Part shown: positions 1,081 through 49,600 of the stretch, one piece after another | Position numbering within the stretch: position 1 is the first letter of the stretch | Layout of the letters: each line of letters begins with the position of its first letter | Assembly (NCBI GenBank): GCA_030141605.1 | Contig: JAQGDQ010000083.1 | Span: forward strand, 310,001 to 374,000 | Direction: 5' to 3' | Source of the DNA: Tubiluchus corallicola | Lineage: Eukaryota > Priapulida > Priapulimorpha > Priapulimorphida > Tubiluchidae | DNA: 64,000 nucleotides | Made by a program: the position numbers and the translations under genes | The notes under the pieces: model-generated | Database searches by the model: none | Seen by the model: the letters and a program-made list of their open reading frames with translations, nothing else | What the model was told of the DNA's origin: nothing

Positions 1081-4000
1081 TCACGACTCTTCTCCACATT
1101 TACATATTACGGATGTATCAACATTTTCCTTATCATCACACATGTATTTGAATGGATGAAAGACTGTTCCCTCCGGGCAGTTCATTGGAACACGCATTTC
1201 ATTGGGTGTGTTCTGCCACAGACATAGATAGTACTTGCGACAGTTTATTGGATTTGCCATTACCATGTGCGAATGTCCGGAGCAAGAGGGACCTGGTCCT
1301 TTCACCTCACATTGCGTACTTTCTGTAGCCATTCCCACAGCGCCGTTTCTTCCAGAAGCAGATGAACCGGAATCCGAAAGTTTTGTTTCCTCCAATTCTG
1401 GATTATATGGCCTCTGCTCTTCCTGGGCAACTACTGGGCCAAGGCTTTCGCCCCCATGAGTATTACTGGGATATGTCTCGTGTCCAACAGTACCAGGTAA
1501 TTCATAATCGTTGTAAGTATTACGTGGATATTGTTCATAGGATTGATTTGTAGGATACCCTTCATAAGAATAAGCTGTATGGTGTGGAAATGGAATACCA
1601 ACTGTGGAAACATGTGATGGATACGTATCATAGTGGCCTGGATAGCTTTCATATGCATCGTGTCCATGTTCAGGGTATGTTTCATGAGGATGCACTTCAT
1701 AGTGTCCATGTTCAGGGTACGTTTCATGAGGATGCACTTCATAGTGTCCATGTTCAGGGTACGTTTCATGAGGATGCACTTCATAGTGTCCATGTTCAGG
1801 GTACGTTTCATGAGGATGCACTTCATAGTGTCCATGTTCAGGGTACGTTTCATGAGGATGCACTTCATAGTGTCCATATTCAGGGTACGTTTCATGAGGA
1901 TGCACTTCATAGTGTCCATATTCAGGATACGTTTCATGAGGATGCACTTCATAGTGTCCATGTTCAGGGTACGTTTCATGAGGATGCACTTCATAGTGTC
2001 CATGTTCAGGATACGTTTCATGAGGATGCACTTCATAGTGTCCATGTTCAGGATACTCTTCATGAGGATGCACTTCATAGTGTCCATGTTCAGGATACGT
2101 TTCATGAGGATGCACTTCATAGTGTCCATGTTCAGGATACTCTTCATGAGGATATAATTCATTAGGATGAACTTCATAGTGTCCATGTTCAGGGTACGTT
2201 TCATGAGGATGCACTTCATAGTGTCCATGTTCAGGGTATGTTTCATGAGGATGCACTTCATAGTGTCCATGTTCAGGGTATGTTTCATGAGGAAGCACTT
2301 CATAATGTCCATGTTCAGGGTATGTTTCATGAGGATGCACTTCATAGTGTCCATGTTCAGGGTATGTTTCATGAGGAAGCACTTCATAATGTCCATGTTC
2401 AGGGTATGTTTCATGAGGATGCACTTCATAATGTCCATGTTCAGGGTATGTTTCATGAGGATGCACTTCATAATGTCCATGTTCAGGGTATGTTTCACGA
2501 GGATGCACTTCATAATGTCCATGTTCAGGGTATGTTTCACGAGGATGCACTTCATAGTGTCCATGTTCAGGGTATGTTTCATGAGGATGCACTTCATAGT
2601 GTCCATGTTCAGGGTATGTTTCATGAGGAAGCACTTCATAGTGTCCATGTTCAGGGTACGCTTCATGAGGATGCACTTCATAGTGTCCATGTTCAGGGTA
2701 TGTTTCATGAGGAAGCACTTCATAATGTCCATGTTCAGGGTATGTTTCATGAGGATGCACTTCATAATGTCCATGTTCAGGGTATGTTTCATGAGGATGC
2801 ACTTCATAATGTCCATGTTCAGGGTATGTTTCACGAGGATGCACTTCATAATGTCCATGTTCAGGGTATGTTTCACGAGGATGCACTTCATAGTGTCCAT
2901 GTTCAGGGTATGTTTCATGAGGATGCACTTCATAGTGTCCATGTTCAGGGTATGTTTCATGAGGAAGCACTTCATAGTGTCCATGTTCAGGGTATGTTTC
3001 ATGAGGAAGCACTTCATAATGTCCATGTTCAGGGTATGTTTCACGAGGATGCACTTCATAATGTCCATGTTCAGGGTATGTTTCATGAGGATGCACTTCA
3101 TAGTGTCCATGTTCAGGGTATGTTTCACGAGGATGCACTTCATAATGTCCATGTTCAGGGTATGTTTCATGAGGATGCACTTCATAATGTCCATGTTCAG
3201 GGTATGTTTCACGAGGATGCACTTCATAATGTCCATGTTCAGGGTATGTTTCACGAGGATGCACTTCATAATGTCCATGTTCAGGGTATGTTTCACGAGG
3301 ATGCCCTTCATAATGTCCATGTTCAGGATATGTTTCACGAGGATGCCCTTCATAATGTCCATGTTCAGGGTATGTTTCACGAGGATGCCCTTCATAATGT
3401 CCATGTTCAGCATACAGTTCATCAGGGTGTGTTTCATAACCATAACTTTCATAAGGATGAACTTCATAGAGTTCAGACCCAGGGTAAGTATCGTAATAAT
3501 TGCTTTTTTCATAAGGGTACGCATGCGGCTCGTTTACTGGATATATTTCAGAACTTTCACGAGGATGTACTTCGAAATCATCATACTGTCCATGTGCTGA
3601 ATATGCACCGTAATTCTCATGTGTTTGATGAGGGTGCACGTCATACTGCTCCGGCAGATATATTACATAATTGTGAGCGTCATAAGGATAGCTGTTGCTA
3701 GGGTAGACTTCATATGCATCTCTGTGTGGATATGTTTCGTAATTGTACGTTTCGTGGGGAATCATTTCGTGTTCTTGATATGGTATGTAACTTCCTTGTG
3801 TTTGATGAGGATACGCATCGTGATAATTCCCGTGCCGTGAATATGATGACTCCACTCTGCGACTGCGACTGTGCCCATGGTAGGCATGGTGCTCATCATA
3901 TCCATGAACAGGGTGTTGTCCTTCTTGCTGATGGGATACATGTTGTACGTAGTGTCGCCGATGTTGCACAGTATGACGCCTGTACGTCTCACCGTGATGT

Positions 4001-7000
4001 GATGTTGCATAATGTGGTTCTACTGCACCCGTTTCATACTTGTGCGGCAACTGCTGTAAAACATTTGAAGATTTTGTGTGGATTACATAGGTCACCTGTG
4101 TCACTTCCAGCAATTCTGTTTTTATTGTGGTCAACAGAGGATTCCTTCCATGATTACAATGACCTTTAAAATCATCAAAACCTAATGCCCAGACCATAAC
4201 GCCTCCAAGGTGATTGTCGATCACATACTTGACCTACAAACAAAAACTAGTTAGACGAACCCTATTGTCAGTCAGGGAAAAATGAGGCCCGTTGATAACA
4301 TGCAAATGCGTTGCAAAAATTACAAAAGTTGGTGATCAGTAACCAGTTGAATGCTAACTGTGGTCAACAATACGTACAAAAAAATTAGTGAAAGTTTGGT
4401 GATGGAAGTTCTAGAACTTGTCCAAATATACTGCAAAGGATTGTTACCTTTTCACTAATACTCCTTGAATCCTCGTAGCCAATCCATTGGTCATTTTTGT
4501 AAGCAAATGGAACAAGCTGATCTTCAACCCAAAAGCTTTCATAGCTTGGCATCACTTCAGAACACACCTACAAAAGATTTAAGTAATGCAAGTCATTAAA
4601 ATTAATAGAAATAAACCACAATTTTTATTTATTTGCAAATGTGACAAATGCCGCACATTGGTACCATTAAAATGTTTGTGAATTTTCCGAAACAGATTTG
4701 CGAATCTTTATAATCTGCAAATTTTGTCGTAATTTATTCATTTATTATGAGTGAAGACGTAGATCTGTAAGTCATTCAAAAAATATTCGCAAGAAGCATT
4801 ATCAGTTGTTCAGTTGGCTAAATCTATCACTTAAGCAGTAATAAGATTGGTGTTTACCAATCCACAAGAAGCCGAAAATCTTAATAAGAATAAGCTCAAG
4901 CAAAGTTTTGTGGGCACAAACCTCGTAGTACGGCATCATTCCTTCCTGTTGATACATGTGTCCAGCCTTGCCACTTCCTACAATAGGTGCATTTAACATG
5001 TGGTCAGATGGGTCTTGGAGAGTGTAAGTCTGTCCAAAAAGAGGAATTCCCAGCAGCAATTTCTTTGGATCCGTTCCATGGTTTATCCAATATTGGACGA
5101 TGAATTCCTTAAAAAAAAGCAACGATAATAGGATTTAGGTTATCTAAGTACACTAAAAACTAAGGAACGCTATATGGCATGGAAGATTATTAAATTATCT
5201 AAGTACACTAAAAACTAAGGAACGCTATATGGCATGGAAGATTATTAGATTGTCTAAGTACACTAAAAACTAAGGAACGTTATATGGCATGGAAGATTAT
5301 TAGATTATCTAAATACACTAAAAACTAAGGAACACTACATGGCATGGAAGATTATTAGATTATCTAAGTACACTAAAAACTAAGCAACACTACATGGCAT
5401 GGAAGATTAATAGATTATCTAAGTACACTAAAAACTAAGGAACACTACATGGCATGGAAGATTATTAGATTATCTAAGTACACTAAAAACTAAAGAACAT
5501 TATATGGCATGGAAGATTATTAGATTATCTAAGTACGCTAAAAACTAAGGAACATTACATGGCATGGAAGATTATTAGATTATCTAAGTACACTAAAAAC
5601 TAAGGAACATTACATGGCATGGAAGATTATTAGATTATCTAAGTACACTAAAAACTAAGGAACGCTATATGACATGAAAGATTACTAGGTTATTTAAGTA
5701 CCCTAAAAACTAAGGAACACTACATGGCATGGAAGATTATTAGGTTATCTAAGTACACTAAAAACTAAGGAACATTATATGGCATGGAAGATTATTAGAT
5801 TATCTAAGTACACTAAAAACTAAGGAACACTACATGGCATGGAAGATTATTAGGTTATCCAAGTACACTAAAAACTAAGGAACACTACATGGCATGGAAG
5901 ATTATTAGGTTATCCAAGTACCCTAAAAACCAAGGAACACTATATGGCATGGAAGATTACTAGGTTATCTAAGGAAAACGATCATACCGCATCTTCATAG
6001 CTATTAGTCTCAAAAGTGCTTCCGTGATTTTCCAATAATTTATCCCTTTCACACACATGACACAAAAATGCTGCCCTTGCTTGTGTGTGATTTTCCAAGT
6101 TGTCTTACACTTAACTGAAATTACTAAAAACAAAGATATTTCAAAGGCGACCTCTTCACTTACAATATTCGCAGTTTTGTCCACATCGTAGGAGTGAGGA
6201 TGCAAAGGACTTCCATGACCAGCGTGTTTGTTCCATATTCCATTAAGGTGATAAGTCATCATTGGTAAATAATCACTAAACCTGCATTTAGAAATCAAGA
6301 ATATTATGAGAAGCTTTTTCTCTTTGAGCACAAATAACCAGAGATGTTTTTTACACAAGGCGCTTTGCAAGGATTAATGGTAGTAGATGATAGATTTCAA
6401 GGACAATTTTGAGGTTAGTCACTTGACCTGCAGGGCGGTTATCTTCTACATAATAATTTATCATTCACTGATAATTCAACTTTTAAATAGCGTTATTAGT
6501 ACCAATTATTTTCATCAAAAATAAGAAACGTATTTATAAACGCACGAAGAGATTTTCGGGATGTCGTAACCCAAATCTATCCAGTATTTAGCGCCCGGTA
6601 TCGTGGTGGCCAAGATTAGTTGATTGTTGCCGGAAAACTTGGCTTCCATCGTAAAGATCTTGTGAAGCTCCTAAAAATTAAACACACAATTGTACATAAA
6701 TTTAAAATTGACACAGAGATATTGGGTAAGAAGAGTCCTCACTTTGCATTAATTTGTTCAAGCCAAAACTACACCATATAGACACGAAGAACCGACGGTC
6801 AACTAGCAGAACTAACAACCTGCTTTAAAATGCTTGAAAAGATGAATTTCAAGAGCAAAGCAGTTAGAGTGTTATAGCCTGTCAAATACTACTAATATTT
6901 TTATATCAATACCTCTAAGAGCAGTGGTAAATTGTCTCTATCTGAAGGATGTCCACCTCTTCGTTCGTAGCCCGGAAACTCCCAGTCGACATTTAGTCCA

Positions 7001-13624: not shown

Positions 13625-14199
13625 CTGACTTTATAACCCTATTACAGGAGCAATCAAATTTCTGTGATTTCAGCTCTTCTTGTTTAGATTTTCCCTCAGC
13701 TATTCGTCAGGAAATCCTTGAAACTTTAACTTCTTTCTTCGTGTACATCCATTTCACTAGCTTCATCTGCTTCATAACTCTGGTTTTGTTGCAAATGCTT
13801 CACTGGCGAATCTTTCTGCTGTTCATTGTCGCCACCCGCCACCCGTCACCCGCTAGCTTTCTTGCTTTTCATTTCCTGTATAATTCCGCTCCTAAACACT
13901 TCGACTCTTGTAAGTTTATTTGGCATAATTAGACAAATGCTATAGAAAGAAGTGTTTATTAACGTAAGGGTCATTACAATAAGCACTTACGTAGCGAGGC
14001 TGCTCGATGCATAGAATAGAAAATGCTTGCAAAATCACGCGCAAGAAATGTCTGAGTGGAATGATGTAATCTTAGAAATACAAATAAAACTAAACTAGAA
14101 AGTGTTTTGCTGTAGGAATTAACTTCCTAGCATCGATGAATTATCCATTTCGACAGAAAGATTATGGTTCGTTTCGTTTGATTAGTGTTGCGCACTTAA

Positions 14200-14850
14200 A
14201 GAATTACACATACGCTATGTTGTTACTTAAGCTATGTTATTACACATACACAATGTTATTACTTAATCTATGTTATTACACATACACAATGTTATTACTT
14301 AATCTATGTTATTACACATACACAATGTTATTACTTAAGCTATATTATTACACATACACAATGTTATTACTTAAACTATATTATTACACATACACAATGT
14401 TATTACTTAAGCTATGTTATTACACATACGCTATGTTATTACTTAAGCTATATTATTACACATACACAATGTTATTACTTAAGCTATGTTATTACACATA
14501 CGCTATGTTATTACTTAAGCTATATTATTACACATACACAATGTTATTACTTAAGCTATGTTATTACACATACACAATGTTATTACTTAAGCTATATTAT
14601 TACACATACACAATGTTATTACTTAAGCTATGTTATTACACATACACAATGTTATTACTTAAGCTATATTACTACACATACACAATGCTATTACTTAATC
14701 TATGTTACACATACACAATGTTATTACTTAAGCTATGGTATTACACATACACAATTTTATTACTTAAGCTATGTTATTACACATACACAATGTTATTACT
14801 TAAGCTATGTTATTACACATACGCTATGTTATTACTTAAGCTAAACTTCA
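14200..14850. repeat. 36-bp minisatellite, about 18 copies
   Basis: The unit is built from 'ttacacatacacaatg' and 'ttattacttaagctat'. It stays open in one frame because 36 is a multiple of three. The predicted peptide is hydrophobic and Tyr-rich (YYTYTMLLLKLC); it is taken as a by-product of the repeat, not a gene. Confidence 0.95.
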
Positions 14851-15654
14851 AAATGAAATAATTACTTCCAGAATTTGACGCCAACCAAAATTTGGTGCCC
14901 TGCGCAACTGCCTGGTTTGCATTAATGGGAGAGACAGCCCTGTTAAGGAGAGTTATCATGGCCGACGTCGGCGGGTTTGTGTGTTTTGGCGGCCGTGTGT
15001 CATTGGTTTAACACAGTTAGCTTAGTGACCACTTGGTCGTGAGTGCCAAGTGTTTATTCTAAATTGAAAATCTGAATAAAAAGACGATAATTAAATTTGA
15101 TATTACTGTATTCCCTATGGTTTATGTATGCAGTGGCATCGTCTAAAAATTTCTCTCTTACAATTAGTTTAGGCCTTAAGTACGTAACTGCGTTAATGTT
15201 TTGAATATAATTGACTAAAGTTTAAATATACCTCTTTTATAAATTAACGAATAAAAACTGCTGTACTAGTCTAAGTGATGTTTGCCTCAATAACCTAAAA
15301 TTAAACGTGACATGCACACTAAAAACGTTTTTGTCAGATGGCAAATAAAAAACGTTTTTTAAAGTTGTTCTACAATGCACGTTAACTAGAGAAATGGTAG
15401 GTTATCGTTAATGCTAGGTGAGAATCCACTAACATTTAGGTGTAAAACTTAGTTCACTTCTAAAATACACGTAATCTTAATTTCTTGAAATACACTGAGA
15501 CTACAGTAGCTATAATGCAATGAATATATAATTTCATGAAAACTTTTTTTATAAGTGTGAACACGATCAACAAATTTTCCAAAAATTTACAAACTACAAA
15601 ATTCTGTAAATGAAAATTGGGAGAAATTAATTTACAAAATGTTTAATTCTTACC

Positions 15655-31601: not shown

Positions 31602-31954
31602 CAGTAGTATAGATGTTTTGCCTCTGGCCGATTTCCCCACCCCCCCTTTGGCTGCCCGGGGGGGTGGGGAAAAACACCCCTAAAAAAGTGCGAAAATCCG
31701 CGAAAACCCCTAAAAAAGTGTGAAAACCCGTGTGAAAGTGCGCACGTGACCGAAATCGACGAAAAAGCGCGAAAAACAAAGAAAAACGAAGAAAAGGCGT
31801 GTGAAACGAGGTAAAAATTTTGCAGTTTTTCCCTCCCGCATGGCTTCATTTGGATCGAATGACCTTGAACTCTAGGTCACGTGACCAAAGTTCATTGACC
31901 CCTGGATGGCTTCTTTTTTTGACACCCCATTTTAAACCGCGCAAAACCGCGCGA

Positions 31955-32040
31955 AAGCATGTGAAAGTGTGTGAAAGCGCGTGAAAGTGTGTGAAAGTGC
32001 GCGAAAGCGTGTGAAAGTGTGTGAAACGAGGTAAAAAGCG
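31955..32040. repeat. 10-bp tandem array in left arm
   Basis: About nine units of the form GTGAAAGTGT / GTGAAAGCGC, one per DNA helical turn. The mirrored array is at 35930-36020. Confidence 0.9.
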
Positions 32041-32404
32041 CCTCAAACGAAGAAAAAGGGAGAAGTGGAGTTCCCGCCGAGGACTAATTAGTGCTAATTG
32101 GCGCTAATTGGCGAGCCCCTGCCACCCCTCCGCCGCGTGCAAACGTCCGTCCCGGGGGTCGGGGACACCCCCCCTGCAACCCACCCCTCCGTCACGTGGA
32201 ATCGTCCATTGCAGGCAATGAGGGAAATCTTCCCCCCCCCCACTCGCGCAGTGCCGGCCCTTTTCCGCGACCACTTCTCTCTCTCGGGTGCCCTCCCTTT
32301 TCCGCGACCACTTCTCTCGCGGGTTTAGATGTGTGTGTGTGTGTGTGTGTGTGGAGATTTATTTCAAACGCCAAAGTTCGATAAATGCATTTTCACAAAT
32401 CTTT

Positions 32405-32410
32405 TTTATT
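32405..32410 (-). terminator. Polyadenylation signal, left arm
   Basis: Minus-strand AATAAA, mirror of 35516-35521, about 150 nt past the TBP-like stop at 32559. Confidence 0.55.
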
Positions 32411-32558
32411 GATGGATTACAAAAAATTTTTTTTACATTTTTTTATGCAAAATACATACGTGCTAAAACTAGATTATTATTATTATTATGGTGACGTGAT
32501 AGTTCTACATTTTACGTTTTTTTCGCAAATTACACAAATTATGCAAATTACAGTAAAA

Positions 32559-33170
32559 CTACACTAATGACGACGAGCGAGTACATGGATTGTCGTCGTC
32601 GTCGTCGATGTGATACAGACAAACGTTATTGTTGTTAAAAACGAATTCGTTAAATTTGCGGAAAACGTGAGAGAAATCCTCGACCTTTGTCCCGCCCATC
32701 ATTATTATGCTTCCGGTGTGAAAAATGTTCAGAGTAATTTGCTCGCATTTGCAAGTTAGTTTGGGAAATAGTTCCACTTCGTAAAACACTTCTCTAAAAG
32801 AATGCGTCGAAGGACGAACGAGTTCTTCGTACAGTGCACCCAGTTTCAATCTGCAGCGAATTTTGGCTCTGGCGGTGATGGTGCGAATTGCGATCCCGTC
32901 GGCGGGCGTCAGTCCGAGACCTTTCGAGAGTTCTTCGATCGCATTGCGTAGTACTTTTTCCTCCGAAAAACCGTTGGCCACCACGGAGCCGGAGGCAAAA
33001 ATCATCAGCGTCCCGCCCAGTCGCTTTAGCAGAAGCATTTGCGGTTTTCTTTCGTAGCGTCTTCCGCCCGTTCTCCGCCGGAGTTCGTTCAGATCGAAGC
33101 GCTGCGAGAACGAAGCCGTGGCGACGATGTTGACCGTTTGGACTGACACGTTAGAACATAGTTGGCAATC
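32559..33170 (-). CDS. TATA-binding-protein-like protein, left arm copy
   Basis: The frame is open from 33560 to a stop at 32559, but the recognisable domain starts at about 33155. It has the two-repeat TBP saddle. Repeat 1 opens TVNIVATASFSQRFDLNEL and contains MIFASGSVVANGFSEEKVL. Repeat 2 opens IRTITARAKIRCRLKLGALY, then FYEVELFPKLTCKC and IFHTGSIIMMGGTKVEDF. These match the TBP pattern of VNIV, IF.SGK.V.TGA, YEPELFP and IF.SGK.V.TGAK. The first clear ATG lies inside repeat 1, so the true start is unknown: an acceptor-like CTAACGTGTCAG just ahead, or a shift from the overlapping upstream ORF, could supply it. TBP binds the TATA box to start transcription; here it may serve the element's own promoters (inferred). 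Confidence 0.85.
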   Translation of the reverse strand, partial: DCQLCSNVSVQTVNIVATASFSQRFDLNELRRRTGGRRYERKPQMLLLKRLGGTLMIFASGSVVANGFSEEKVLRNAIEELSKGLGLTPADGIAIRTITARAKIRCRLKLGALYEELVRPSTHSFREVFYEVELFPKLTCKCEQITLNIFHTGSIIMMGGTKVEDFSHVFRKFNEFVFNNNNVCLYHIDDDDDNPCTRSSSLV

Positions 33171-33601
33171 GTTTCGGACGCCCGAACCGCTCTGCCTCGT
33201 CCGTTGCTCTGCCAACGTATGGCGGGCGGCGGGTGGTCGCTTTCCAGATCCTCTACGCGTATGACCACGCGATTTTTGGGGAGATGTTTTTTGACGAAAT
33301 CGTACATCTCTGCTCCCTTGACGTAGGTGATCCTGCCTCTGGTGGTCTGTCGTAGAATGTTTTCCAATTCTGCGTACTCGATCATTCCCTCCTCCCACGA
33401 GATGCCGTGTATGTGTCTGATTAGGTAGTTGTAGGTGGATCGCTTGTGCTGGGGAACACGATTCCAGGGGTGGGGCGGTTTGAAGGTGTAGTTGTGATAT
33501 ATGCCGGTCTCTATTTCGCGAATTACCAAATTTTTGACCAGGTATTCTTCTTTTCCGCACTGGAAGGCATCTACGGTGAGAACTATGCTCGATTCAGACA
33601 T
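33089..33601 (-). CDS. Unknown 170-aa protein, left arm copy
   Basis: ATG at 33601 to stop at 33089. Visible motifs: MSESSIVLTVDAFQCGKEEYL, YHNYTFKPPHPWN, HGISWEEGMIEY, YVKGAEMYDFVKKHLP. A pattern of this kind (short N-terminal strand, FKPP..W, HGI.W..G, YVKG.E) is one I associate with uncharacterised proteins in invertebrate genomes; I cannot name a family. Its ATG overlaps the stop of the preceding basic ORF (ATGTCTGA), and its 3' end overlaps the TBP-like frame by about 80 nt. The last ~25 residues may be read-through of TBP-coding sequence rather than functional protein. Confidence 0.75.
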   Translation of the reverse strand: MSESSIVLTVDAFQCGKEEYLVKNLVIREIETGIYHNYTFKPPHPWNRVPQHKRSTYNYLIRHIHGISWEEGMIEYAELENILRQTTRGRITYVKGAEMYDFVKKHLPKNRVVIRVEDLESDHPPPAIRWQSNGRGRAVRASETIANYVLTCQSKRSTSSPRLRSRSASI

Positions 33602-33800
33602 CTGTGACGATGGGGGGTCCTTCTACGCCGTCGGCAACGAGTTTTCCTTCGATGACGATTTGCTTGTGATTGTTCACAAATTCCAGAGACTTGATTTTTT
33701 CGAAGGTGTATTTTTTTATGACCTTGTTGGGGGCACTCTTGCGTGCGTTGGCGCGCTTGCCGCCCCGCGTCCCCGCTTGTTGTTGTTGCTTGCGAGGAAC
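33594..33800 (-). CDS. Small basic protein, left arm copy (C-terminal part)
   Basis: The shared arm part encodes a Lys/Arg-rich stretch (GTRGGKRANARKSAPNKVIKK) and then FEKIKSLEFVNN and KQIVIEGKLVADG, ending at a stop overlapping the next ATG. On this side the frame stays open into the unique centre with no ATG close by, so its N-terminus is undecided. Confidence 0.55.
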   Translation of the reverse strand, partial: VPRKQQQQAGTRGGKRANARKSAPNKVIKKYTFEKIKSLEFVNNHKQIVIEGKLVADGVEGPPIVTDV

Positions 33801-33890
33801 TGGACAAACTGGACGGAAAGAAGTCTGCCAGACACGGACGTCGGCACCTCCGCCCCTCCGTGTAAAAGCAGACGCGAGAGAGGGACACGA

Positions 33891-34058
33891 ATGGACATCT
33901 TTCGAGAGGAGGAGGAGGAAGAGGAGAAAGATGATGATAAAGAAGAAGACAAACTCGTAATTTCCGCGACGCCCCCTCCATCGCCGCCGATGGTGCTCAC
34001 CCCCACTGCCCCCAAAAAACCTAGAAATCTGAAAGAATGGCTCATCAAAAATGCCTAG
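33891..34058 (+). CDS. Acidic 55-aa ORF in the unique centre of the palindrome
   Basis: ATG at 33891 to TAG at 34056-34058. The peptide begins MDIFREEEEEEEKDDDKEED and ends KPRNLKEWLIKNA with a Pro-rich middle. It lies in the only non-palindromic part. It may be an upstream exon for the basic protein that follows, which has an acceptor-like site at 34108-34109. Unrecognised. Confidence 0.4.
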   Translation: MDIFREEEEEEEKDDDKEEDKLVISATPPPSPPMVLTPTAPKKPRNLKEWLIKNA

Positions 34059-34109
34059 TTGTCGTTAGCGAACAACAATACTATAACTATTGTTCTTCTT
34101 CTCTTGCAG

Positions 34110-34340
34110 GATTTCAAACAACCTCTAACCACCGTTCCTCGCAAGCAACAACAACAAGCGGGGACGCGGGGCGGCAAGCGCGCCAACGCACGCAAGAGTG
34201 CCCCCAACAAGGTCATAAAAAAATACACCTTCGAAAAAATCAAGTCTCTGGAATTTGTGAACAATCACAAGCAAATCGTCATCGAAGGAAAACTCGTTGC
34301 CGACGGCGTAGAAGGACCCCCCATCGTCACAGATGTCTGA
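34110..34340 (+). CDS. Small basic protein, right arm copy
   Basis: Open frame from an acceptor-like site (tgttcttcttctcttgcag|GAT) to a TGA at 34338-34340, 76 residues: DFKQPLTTVPRKQQQQ, a Lys/Arg-rich stretch, then FEKIKSLEFVNN and KQIVIEGKLVADG. No in-frame ATG precedes it, which supports splicing from the acidic ORF or another leader. It overlaps the next ATG by eight nt. The basic N-terminus suggests nucleic-acid binding (inferred). Confidence 0.5.
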   Translation, partial: DFKQPLTTVPRKQQQQAGTRGGKRANARKSAPNKVIKKYTFEKIKSLEFVNNHKQIVIEGKLVADGVEGPPIVTDV

Positions 34341-34837
34341 ATCGAGCATAGTTCTCACCGTAGATGCCTTCCAGTGCGGAAAAGAAGAATACCTGGTCAA
34401 AAATTTGGTAATTCGCGAAATAGAGACCGGCATATATCACAACTACACCTTCAAACCGCCCCACCCCTGGAATCGCGTTCCCCAGCACAAGCGATCCACC
34501 TACAACTACCTAANNNNNNNNNNNNNNNNNNNNNNNNNNNNNNNNNNNNNNNNNNNNNNNNNNNNNNNNNNNNNNNNNNNNNNNNNNNNNNNNNNNCACC
34601 TACGTCAAGGGAGCAGAGATGTACGATTTCGTCAAAAAACATCTCCCCAAAAATCGCGTGGTCATACGCGTAGAGGATCTGGAAAGCGAGCACCCGCCGC
34701 CCGCCATACGTTGGCAGAGCAACGGACGAGGCAGAGCGGTTCGGGCGTCCGAAACGATTGCCAACTACGTTCTAACGTGTCAGTCCAAACGGTCAACATT
34801 GTCGCCACTGCTTCGTTCTCGCAGCGCTTCGATCTGA
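34333..34837 (+). CDS. Unknown 170-aa protein, right arm copy, broken by an assembly gap
   Basis: Same protein as on the left arm, ATG at 34333, stop at 34837. The run of 83 Ns (34514-34596) replaces what is 91 nt in the left arm (33330-33420), so the written sequence falsely joins this ATG to the TBP frame. After the gap the original frame resumes with MYDFVKKHLPKN. One visible change from the left copy is Glu for Asp before HPPPAIRW. Confidence 0.7.
34514..34596. other. Assembly gap (83 N)
   Basis: All N. The mirrored left-arm interval is 91 nt long, so the stated gap length is probably 8 nt too short. Confidence 0.98.
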
Positions 34838-35367
34838 ACGAACTCCGGCGGAGAACGGGCGGAAGACGCTACGAAAGGAAACCGCAAATGCTTCTGCTAA
34901 AGCGACTGGGCGGGACGGTGATGATTTTTGCCTCCGGCTCCGTGGTGGCCAACGGTTTTTCGGAGGAAAAAGTACTACGCAATGCGATCGAAGAACTCTC
35001 GAAAGGTCTCGGACTGACGCCCGCCGACGGGATCGCAATTCGCACCATCACCGCCAGAGCCAAAATTCGCTGCAGATTGAAACTGGGTGCACTGTACGAA
35101 GAACTCGTTCGTCCTTCGACGCATTCTTTTAGAGAAGTGTTTTACGAAGTGGAACTATTTCCCAAACTAACTTGCAAATGCGAGCAAATTACTCTGAACA
35201 TTTTTCACACCGGAAGCATAATAATGATGGGCGGGACAAAGGTCGAGGATTTCTCTCGCGTTTTCCGCAAATTTAACGAATTCGTTTTTAACAACAATAA
35301 CGTTTGTCTGTATCACATCGACGACGACGACGACAATCCATGTACTCGCTCGTCGTCATTAGTGTAG
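34775..35367 (+). CDS. TATA-binding-protein-like protein, right arm copy
   Basis: Same two-repeat TBP-like domain as on the left arm, ending at a stop at 35367. Few residues differ (VMIF for LMIF, SRVFRKF for SHVFRKF). Both copies are intact, which argues for recent duplication, gene conversion between arms, or selection. The C-terminus ends in an Asp run followed by NPCTRSSSLV. Confidence 0.85.
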
Positions 35368-35515
35368 TTTTACTGTAATTTGCATAATTTGTGTAATTTG
35401 CGAAAAAAACGTAAAATGTAGAACTATCACGTCACCATAATAATAATAATAATCTAGTTTTAGCACGTATGTATTTTGCATAAAAAAATGTAAAAAAAAT
35501 TTTTTGTAATCCATC

Positions 35516-35521
35516 AATAAA
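35516..35521 (+). terminator. Polyadenylation signal, right arm
   Basis: AATAAA about 150 nt past the TBP-like stop; the mirror is at 32405-32410 on the minus strand. The presence in both arms supports RNA polymerase II transcripts leaving the centre in both directions. Confidence 0.55.
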
Positions 35522-35579
35522 AAAGATTTGTGAAAATGCATTTATCGAACTTTGGCATTTGAAATAAATCTCCACGCGC

Positions 35580-35617
<38 letters not shown>

Positions 35618-35929
35618 CTAAACCCGCGAGAGAAGTGGTCGCGGAAAAGGGAGGGCACCCGAGAGAGAGAAGTGGTCGCGGAAAAGGGCCGGCACTGCGC
35701 GAGTGGCAGGAAAAAGATTTCCCTCATTGCCTGCAGTGGACGATTCCACGCGACGGAGGGGTGGGTTGCAGGGGGGGGTGTCCCCGACCCCCGGGACGGA
35801 CGTTTGCACGCGGCGGAGGGGTGGCAGGGGCTCCCCAATTAGCGCCAATTAGCGCCAATTAGCACTAATTAGTCCTCGGCGGGAACTCCACTTCTCCCTT
35901 TTTCTTCGTTTGAGGCGCTTTTTACCTCG

Positions 35930-36020
35930 TTTCACACACTTTCACACGCTTTCACACGCTTTCACGCGCTTTCACGCGCTTTCACACACTTTCACGTGCT
36001 TTCGCGCGGTTTCACGCGGT
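35930..36020. repeat. 10-bp tandem array in right arm
   Basis: TTCACACGCT-type units, mirror of 31955-32040 with small differences in the order of variants. Close by are three spaced copies of 'taattagcgcc' or 'taattagcac' (35838-35870), again mirrored on the left (32085-32112). Confidence 0.9.
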
Positions 36021-36362
36021 TTAAAATGGGGCGTCAAAAAAAGAAGCCATCCAGGGGCCAGGGGTCAATGAACTTTGGTCACGTGACCTAGAGTTCAAGG
36101 TCATTCGATCCAAATGAAGCCATGCGGGAGGGGAAAAACTGCAAAATTTTTCCCTCGTTTCACATACCTTTTCTTTGTTTTTCTTTGTTTTTCGCGCTTT
36201 TTCGTCGATTTTGGTCACGTGCGCACTTTCACACGGGTTTTCACACTTTTTTAGGGGTTTTCCCGGATTTTCGCACTTTTTAGGGGTGTTTTTGTCCCCA
36301 CCCCACCGGGCAGCCAAAGTGGGCGTGGCCTATCGGCCAGAGGTGTAACATCTATACTACTG

Positions 36363-46600: not shown

Positions 46601-49600
46601 TAATTTGCACAAGGGTGTAACTGCAAAAGGCAATCCTCACATGCAGCTTTGCAGCACTGTAGAAGCCTCGCAAAATGAAAAGTGTAAAGTATTTAGCTGC
46701 ATAAAAAGCAAACAGGCGGAAAATTGCCTAGAGTGCCAACATTTTTGAGGTGCCAAATTCTAGAAGTAATTCTTTAATTAATTTTGAAATTTAGCCTAAG
46801 TAATAACATGTTGTGTGTGTAATTCTTTAAGTGCACAACACTAATAAAATGAAACAGACTAGTTGCATTATTTTCCTGACGTATGATTCTTGGATGCTGG
46901 CAAGTGTCTTCCTGCAGAAAAACACTTTTTAGTTTTGCTTTATCAAGTTATCTAAGATTACACCACTTCACCTAGCACCCAAGACGTACTAGCATCTTAA
47001 ATTAAACTTCAAACTCAATCAACACAAGCTGTAATTGACTACACTTCATTAGAGCCCTATAATATATTATACACTATAATGCGGTACCACTGTAATTTAT
47101 TATAATATGGTTCAAGAAAAATTCAATATTGGGAGTGGGGTATGGTCCGTGAGGGGAAGGAGTTGGTCATTAAGGAGGCGGCGCGAAAAAAAAATTTGGC
47201 TAAGGCATCAGATAACCAAGAGCCGGCCCTGATGTATGAAGCTAAAATTTTGAAGGGATTGATAAATTAGATATTAAAGCCACTAATGCATTTACCTTCC
47301 AACAAGGCAAGTTGAGCTGATGAATTACCACGGTGAGACAATGATTTCGTGCAAAAGCCACTATTGCATCATTTCCAGCATAGACTCCGGGTTTTTTAAG
47401 ATTAGCAACTGTAAGAAACAATTGTAATTTATATTAAACCATTTCTTGAAACCACTCATGTTTGTTTCATAGTTTCCACCTTGCTTAGCAATTATAACAG
47501 CAAAAGTACATTCATCAAATATATTTTGCCATGTTAGACTTCCTAGTGAAATATAAGAAATACTTAAAAGTGCATCATTGGCTGTATATGTATCTGTTTG
47601 TAAAGGAAATTTAGATAAAATATGTTTGGCTGAGAAAGTGTACAGGCAACATGTTTTTTCCAAGGAAATGATTTATGACAGTGAATGCTGAGTAGTTGGT
47701 ATCAGAAAATATGGCACTATGATCAGTTAATCAGAAATACTATATAAGGATTTAAAGAAAGCTGGTTTAGCTCTCTGTGTAAGTACTGTTAAGTTTTGGA
47801 ATCACTTTCAATACCAACTGACTATCAGTGCATTGCAGGTAACAGTAAAACATTCAGGGCACATGGTTAGTAACCTACAACATCCTGTACTTGTAATAGT
47901 CTCCTAGACGTGGCAGCACTGTATAACATGTGCATTTACATAATAAATATGTCAACACTCACACCACACTTAACCAATCCAGAACCTGGTAGCTATTGTA
48001 CTTGTAATAGCCTCCTAGAGGTGGTAGCACTGTATAACATGTGCTTGTACATAATAAATATGTCAACATTCACACCACACTTAACCAATCCAGAACCCGG
48101 TAGCTATTGTACTTGTAATAGCCTCCTAGAGGTGGTAGCACTGTATAACATGTGCTTGTACATAATAAATATGTCAACATTCACACCACACTTAACCAAT
48201 CCAGAACCTGGTAGCTATTGTACTTGTAATAGCCTCCTAGAGGTGGTAGCACTGTATAACATGTGCTTGTACATAATAAATATGTCAACACTCACACCAC
48301 ACTTAACCAATCCAGAACCTGGTAGCTATTATACTTGTAATAGCCTCCTAGAGGTGGCAGCACTGTATAACATGTGCTTGTACATAATAAATATGTCAAC
48401 ACTCACACCACACTTAACCAATCCAGAACCCGGTAGCTATTGCACTTGTAATAGCCTCATAGAGGTAGCAGCACTGTATAGCACGTGCTTGTACATAATA
48501 AATATGTCAACACTCACACCACACTTAACCAATCCAGAGCTTGGTAGCTATTGTACTTATAATAGCCTCCTAGAGGTGGCAGCACTGTATAACATGTGCT
48601 TGTACATAATAAATATGTCAACACTCACACCACACTTAAGCAATTTCGAGGCAGGTAGCTATATGGAAGGGTGACAGCTGGGACGTTCTACGATATGGCT
48701 AATACAACTCAGTCAGCTCAGTGTTTTGCAGGATTGGTTGACGATTAGGTAGATTGCAGTCTGAACCTATTAACTTACATGAAGTAAGTAATGTCAGGCA
48801 GGGCTGGGTTATTGTGGCTTGCAAAGCGCACAACTGTGCTTTAAAAAAATAGAAAGATGAACTTGTAGCTCAGCAAAAATGTGTTTTTAAAAGAGAAAAG
48901 ATACTGACAATGCATAAAGTCCACATAAACAAATGAAGTTACTGAACTGATGCAGCAGATTGCTTTGCTTTACACACACGTCAGATGATAGTTGTAGTTA
49001 AAACACGTTGTTGTAGTACACTTAATCTTTGTCCTACAGCAACTTAGTGAGCACACAATGAAATTGTGAAAAGGCTTATTAACAGAGTGATAATGAAATT
49101 TGAAAATGCTGATATGTGACATTTTGACTAAGATGAGGTACATTCAGAAGCAGTGTGTTTAACCCTCACCGTATCTGTCAAAATGTTCCTCTATAAATGG
49201 CTCAAAGTCTTTTCTGTGTGATGCAATGTAATCAGCAGTTTCCAGCCGATGTCTCATGTGGTGCCGGTGATGTCCTTCATATTGATCTGCCAAGGACCGG
49301 AAGAGGCAATTCCTGAAAAAATACATACTCTTATCTCAAGTAGCCTAGATTTCAATGACCATTTTTAAAAACATAATTATGTTTATCTGAAGTAACTAAG
49401 ATTTTGATTGCCCCTAAGAAAAGTTTGAGGAAATTCTTTTCATATCACACCAGTATTGCTTTAGCAAGATTACACACATATATTCTTAATTTTTTTCTTT
49501 TTTATTTACATTTATCCTATCATTGTGGAAACTTAATATCCAAAAAGCTAAATGGTGCTTAAAATATTGTGCAATTGGAATTGGACCTCAATTTAGGTGG

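Follow-up and report, generated by a model that had tools for sequence, protein, structure and literature searches.

Animal adintoviruses are close kin of the Polintons or Mavericks (Polintoviricetes). In excerpts of the sources describing these virus-like DNA transposons, the Polinton set comprises an integrase, a packaging ATPase, a cysteine protease, capsid proteins, and a protein-primed PolB (PMC4028283, PMC8097293), the class measures 15-20 kb (PMC4028283), and vertebrate Mavericks have (AGT)2 ends and 6-bp duplications (PMC8097293). TATA-binding protein (TBP) is absent from the gene lists in the excerpted parts of PMC4028283 and PMC8097293, and neither TATA nor TBP is mentioned in excerpts of PMC11071308. 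Viral TBPs are described, again in partial texts, for 59% of mirusvirus genomes (PMC10132985), for mirusvirus-like elements (PMC10675990), and, in a 2024 survey, for large double-stranded DNA viruses of three and then four further families (PMC11410667); in the algal virus CpV-BQ1, TBP and TFIIB likely work with the host RNA polymerase (PMC12085832), and other parts of the viral TBP literature touch on phycodnaviruses (PMC4602308) and a megavirus (PMC11464507) or form a reference list (PMC7786948). Here we report on a stretch of 64,000 nucleotides (nt) from the priapulid Tubiluchus corallicola (contig JAQGDQ010000083.1; hereafter the window, C457:310001-374000, where C and L numbers are our labels for contigs and loci), part of an assembly of 343.5 Mb in 2344 contigs. 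The feature at window positions 31602-36362 is very probably the terminal part of a Polinton/Maverick that is present in many genome copies and bears a TBP-like gene at its tip, its palindromic form in the window most likely stemming from a contig join.

Physical linkage of the TBP-like gene to Polinton-type genes was observed in three contigs. In C1626, a AGTAGTATAG-like terminal repeat, the TBP frame, and a 170-amino-acid (aa) open reading frame (ORF) run N-free into a 311-aa ORF and from there into further Polinton-type ORFs: in order, a 387-aa, a 137-aa, and a 265-aa ORF, a 364-aa integrase with a chromodomain, a 260-aa and a 130-aa ORF, then a long ORF at the position of the major capsid protein, a 205-aa ORF, and, on the other strand at the contig end ~12.6 kb inside the element, a PolB-like fragment. 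A more diverged copy in C2033 has the same start and a large internal loss, linking the TBP end to part of the Polinton set, and in C2003 a junction with short filler connects the TBP frame with the region of the 137-aa ORF, beyond which lie the 265-aa ORF and the integrase. The TBP-like gene, the 170-aa gene, a basic ORF, and the 311-aa gene are all read outward to the terminal repeat. What lies inward of the arms, which the preliminary description of this DNA had proposed to learn from other copies in the genome, is seen in C1626 as the integrase and the other Polinton-type ORFs. The compact element made of two arms that it had also envisaged does not agree with an end that continues N-free into such genes, and a self-contained palindromic transposon was ruled out on these grounds, C2033 and C2003 adding portions of the gene set; nor does the window support a small element of its own.

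The 364-aa integrase matched PF00665 (rve; E 1.8e-17) and PF00385 (Chromo; E 8.4e-6), both above the Pfam cut-off, and had 1230 relatives, the best at 76% identity among the best 120 of the 1230. The 387-aa ORF shows a Walker A motif by eye, and its Pfam matches to AAA_14 (E 0.0074) and FtsK (E 0.0089) were both below the cut-off. For the 205-aa protease-like ORF, the sole Pfam match was Peptidase_C5 (E 0.0067, below the cut-off), and comparison with the PDB gave nothing meaningful. ORFs occupy the places expected of the double jelly-roll capsid proteins, major and minor; for the long ORF at the capsid position, the C-terminal part gave no Pfam match. The PolB-like fragment contains SDTDS- and NSLFGK-type motifs, which we take to be PolB motifs; it had no Pfam match, and in the PDB it retrieved only two designed proteins at E 0.003. 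Scans of viral contigs with the 170-aa protein, TBP, the integrase, the ATPase-like ORF, the 265-aa ORF, and the PolB-like fragment returned no relative. The 170-aa protein had none either in Pfam, in a search of 5.8 billion proteins, or in PHROGs, and its one PDB match was a chance match (E 0.37); its model had a mean predicted local distance difference test (pLDDT) score of 38. We also observed a very weak match of the 311-aa protein adjoining the TBP module (L027 188-1123, minus strand) to the coactivator PC4 (E 0.057, below the cut-off).

The element thus resembles Polintons/Mavericks in its chromodomain RVE integrase, in terminal inverted repeats that start with an (AGT)2-type motif, and in the ATPase-like, protease-like, capsid-position, and PolB-like ORFs of a single C1626 stretch. 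It differs from them in the TBP-like gene, the 170-aa orphan, and the 311-aa gene at one end, and in terminal repeats that measure ~0.7-0.86 kb and abound in short GC-rich repeats. Element class and fold have each been described before; a TBP gene within a Polinton appears new. Full-text literature pairing Polinton, Maverick, or adintovirus with TBP gave no report of TBP in such elements among the matches listed, a scope that excludes subscription literature and Repbase. The preliminary description knew of no animal transposon family built in this way; Mavericks are a known animal class.

The TBP frame matched PF00352 over two stretches (E 4.8e-22; 78.1 bits, cut-off 22.9 bits), and sequence comparison with solved proteins matched 35, the best at E 1e-9, which bears out the two-repeat TBP read earlier from the letters alone. 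The predicted model retrieved, via Foldseek, 44 PDB matches at E <= 0.001, all of them TBP chains or TBP-containing complexes, with template-modeling (TM) scores to the query of 0.53-0.65; a check of the structure for a TBP saddle had been proposed, and this is its result. Named fold matches among viral models include giant-virus TBPs (Heterosigma akashiwo virus) and the B263R homologue of abalone asfa-like virus. The profile and the predicted fold together point to a genuine TBP-like gene, and chance ORFs were ruled out on the same support. Like cellular TBPs (PF00352), the protein has two TBP repeats and a matching predicted fold, and when aligned to a solved TBP it has Phe at 3 of the 4 positions of the intercalating phenylalanines, which we take to be those that enter DNA in TBP; unlike them, it does not keep the Phe of the first-repeat KRF motif and has an acidic C-terminal tail. 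It shares a TBP-like fold in a virus or virus-like element with the viral TBPs (the African swine fever virus [ASFV] B263R family, giant algal viruses, mirusviruses), but theirs are found in large DNA viruses and this one in an element of the 15-20 kb class (an excerpted figure, PMC4028283).

Since animals possess TBP and TBP-related factors, a recently captured or domesticated host gene has to be considered. Identity in the 44 structural alignments was 18-25%, however, and 19-20% for human TBPs; the gene occupies the same spot next to the terminal repeat even where the flanks of the copies differ; and another sample contains, on a 1.9-kb contig, a relative with 59% identity across 143 aligned residues, the sole protein at E <= 0.001 among 163 candidates. 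Recent capture from the host is thus extremely improbable, and we ruled it out on the identity to human TBP and the constant position in the element.

The TBP frame overlaps the 170-aa ORF in the -1 frame, and its earliest ATG sits within the first TBP repeat. As there is no ATG upstream of that repeat, a spliced or -1 frameshifted start is likely, and translation probably begins upstream by one of these routes. A single open frame spans both TBP halves in 23 of 26 copies (scored by text markers, with the re-used contig described below counted once); the exceptions are one L010 arm, a variable copy in L019, and L024, in which a 7-nt insertion merges the 170-aa and TBP frames and the TBP frame is broken further on. 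In a test for selection, synonymous changes were enriched in the 170-aa part (11/22; p 0.018) and in the pooled test (p 0.005; 19 rows), counts to be read with the caution that the changes lack independence, as the copies are related. Both window arms and two L010 arms were among the 19 rows, a base changed in the re-used contig being counted once, and wrong-frame controls gave 10/44 (p 0.77) and 2/22 (p 0.995).

The inverted arms that had first drawn attention to 31602-36362 are present in the assembled sequence, with blocks of 1000 nt at 99% and 380 nt at 100% complementarity and other main-register blocks at 86-100%. They are also, as described, richer in GC than their flanks (46.7-53.0% in the four 1-kb bins of 32001-36000, 26.9-45.1% in the remaining 60 window bins). 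The same set of ORFs had been read in each arm. In the left arm the 170-aa ORF is indeed complete and the TBP frame open, and the TBP part is open in the right arm as well, but there the 170-aa frame is interrupted because 83 N lie inside it, leaving a single complete gene set visible in the window. A scan of the window against Rfam gave no match at the gathering score. The features are as follows, the re-used contig being the one that ends at 34513.

31603-32421, plus strand: terminal inverted repeat of the Polinton end in the re-used contig, starting AGTAGTATAGATG (self-comparison and end alignment; (AGT)2 motif of vertebrate Mavericks, excerpt of PMC8097293)
32559-33173, minus strand: TBP-like coding frame P0003, 204 aa, with two PF00352 stretches (profile, PDB sequence, and fold matches)
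33089-33601, minus strand: 170-aa ORF P0002, overlapping the TBP frame (ORF reading; no relative found in the searches above)
33602-33800, minus strand: left copy, part of the basic ORF upstream of the 170-aa ORF, truncated at the fold-back (sequence reading)
33801-34133, plus strand: fold-back center, inverted inner Polinton sequence with the C-terminal 55 aa of the 311-aa gene from 33891 and a putative splice acceptor
34134-34513, plus strand: inner part of the second arm on the same contig, 380 nt 100% complementary to 33421-33800; contig end at 34513
34514-34596, no strand: 83 N where two contigs are joined
34597-35367, plus strand: second copy (other contig), end of the 170-aa frame and TBP-like frame, TBP part open
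35505-36361, minus strand: terminal inverted repeat of the second copy

The sequence ending at window position 34513 is one contig of 344,513 bp that was placed in 13 contigs of the assembly. Compared base by base over stretches of 3.5-5.1 kb out of the 344 kb, the sequence up to that position, flank included, was 99.97-100% identical at 15 loci in 12 other contigs. Measured to the contig end, the re-used copy is 344,513 bp long in 9 of the 9 contigs in which it stands last, it ends at 344,513 in 3 of the 3 others (C457, C628, C2254), and C2228 has a total length of 344,513 bp. Searching with the terminal repeat recovered the same 13 places at 100% (40 of 99 candidates scored). The facing arm varies among the other contigs with the re-used sequence (89-99% blocks), and the second arm of the window is another contig, ending in a second element copy and joined across the 83 N. 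Because one contig was placed 13 times and the second arm was joined across N, the palindrome is poor evidence for a palindromic element; most likely, from the assembled sequence, it consists of two Polinton ends joined by the assembly. The 344.5-kb contig stops within the element, with a short fold-back at its end, and the assembly would have set it against a contig ending in another copy; this placement would be why the two ends face each other. Of the two options in the preliminary description, the joined inverted ends of a larger virus-like genome came nearer, in that these are Polinton/Maverick ends, but their joining is best explained by assembly; and the fold-back by assembly that it had named as its own counter-explanation is, judged from the assembled contigs, largely what the window holds. 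Separately, the 13 placements of this contig (C457:1-344513, which takes in window positions 1-34513) amount to ~4.1 Mb of false duplication, and gene counts there would be inflated. Multi-copy element ends can lead an assembly to repeat one contig and produce convincing palindromes, a warning that extends beyond this locus.

Within the re-used contig itself, an inverted repeat at the end (33421-33800 and 34134-34513) flanks 333 nt. Relative to L025, the left arm keeps the normal order up to 33800, where nine shared bases, GCGAGGAAC, lead into inverted inner sequence. Snap-back or symmetric defective genomes occur in protein-primed viruses such as adenovirus, and the palindrome could in principle be a real snap-back (copy-back) defective Polinton, in which the template was switched at a short inverted match during protein-primed replication and the folded product integrated. 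Beyond the window junction, such an origin would fit a second fold-back, into a truncated terminal repeat, in L033 (C197, also L002), which shares GTTTGTCT, and it would fit L010 (C354), where two facing arms surround ~105 nt of unrelated sequence (3681-3790) with no N and which, from its arrangement, has the strongest claim to being a real palindromic copy. Yet just 380 nt of the window's second arm lie within the same, 13-fold placed contig and the remainder lies across N; the junction at 33800/33801, found in 16 of 29 loci and the window, is confined to the window's own or the re-used contig; the 6-mers outside the left and right window ends are unequal (GGCCTC and GTGCAA); and the L010 arrangement is itself duplicated in the assembly (C354 and C2254). 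The fold-back junctions in the window contig and L033 resemble those of adenovirus-type snap-back genomes in their 8-9 shared bases, though here both the forms and their replication in the animal are putative. On balance a real snap-back copy in the window is unlikely, and a join of two Polinton ends by the assembly is preferred.

Element ends start with AGTAG[TG]ATAG in 25 distinct flanks. Two terminal-repeat types were seen, AGTAGTATAG... and AGTAGGATAG..., both adjoining TBP, and L022 has one of each (1686, 4799). Two loci, L022 (C47) and L030 (C229), each hold in one contig ~3.1 kb with both terminal repeats facing, one gene set, and their own flanks. Such loci might represent a self-contained 3.1-kb element, two terminal repeats around the TBP and 170-aa genes, moved in trans by full Polintons. 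We consider this improbable: the internal junctions of L022 and L030 differ, as expected for separate deletions and not for one mobile family; the junction string of L022 was found in 1 of 29 loci; and both loci are without a 6-bp target duplication, so they may be deletions or joined ends. By eye, against L025 and the arms, the junctions in L022, L030, and L033 share 8, 10, and 8 nt. Among the element ends compared, there was no complementary 6-mer pair and no full copy with both ends.

Several neighbors of element ends were also observed. At L030 270-362 (C229), the end borders a long ACT tandem repeat that resembles the element's own AGT/ACT terminal motif; at L040 1125-1982 (C2003), a reverse transcriptase (RT)-like ORF lies directly by an element end (RVT_1 E 0.0043, below the cut-off); and a P450 adjoins another element copy. 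Elsewhere in the window, a 1050-aa frame at 1081-4233 (minus strand), mostly YPEHGHYEVHPHET-like repeats, has a C-terminal, chitin-binding peritrophin-A domain (CBM_14 E 9.4e-9) and is adjoined by a glycosyl hydrolase 18 (chitinase-type) fragment at 4802-5134 (minus strand; E 1.1e-7). Long tandem-repeat frames at 14094-14861 and 47874-48674 (plus strand) look like minisatellite DNA and not genes. The peritrophin-A, glycosyl hydrolase 18, and P450 sequences agree with an animal host, though they are no proof of one.

Several observations weigh against the Polinton-end interpretation and its parts. Pfam support for the ATPase, protease, capsid, and PolB assignments is weak or absent, and the PDB was of no help for PolB and the protease. 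The mean pLDDT of the TBP model was a moderate 58.9, and that of the other four models 31-37; the TBP part alone had 18/44 synonymous changes (p 0.065). L022 and L030, without the 6-bp target duplication, are the two loci with both complete ends in one contig. Finally, the join was deduced from assembled contigs, and a real palindrome keeps a share of the probability.

The terminal part of this probable multi-copy Polinton/Maverick carries the TBP-like, 170-aa, basic, and 311-aa genes. The likeliest role of the TBP-like protein would be promoter recognition for the element's genes: contacting promoter DNA in the manner of TBP, it would recruit the host RNA polymerase machinery to these genes, a role for which the TBP and TFIIB of CpV-BQ1 offer a precedent. 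As an alternative role, it may compete with host TBP. We give even odds to a wider proposal, in which a lineage of animal Polintons/Mavericks maintains its own TBP and an orphan partner as a promoter-recognition factor that redirects the host polymerase, while replication leaves deletion and snap-back derivatives that keep the terminal TBP module. Viral homologues of TBP are known from large DNA viruses; if a Polinton, an integrating element, carries one too, a promoter-recognition factor was also acquired in this lineage. If true, the element, whose visible ORFs include no RNA polymerase, would offer a small, testable system for studying how viruses take over transcription initiation. Many eukaryotic DNA viruses have been discussed as relatives of Polintons, and the origin of viral TBPs becomes a question for trees.

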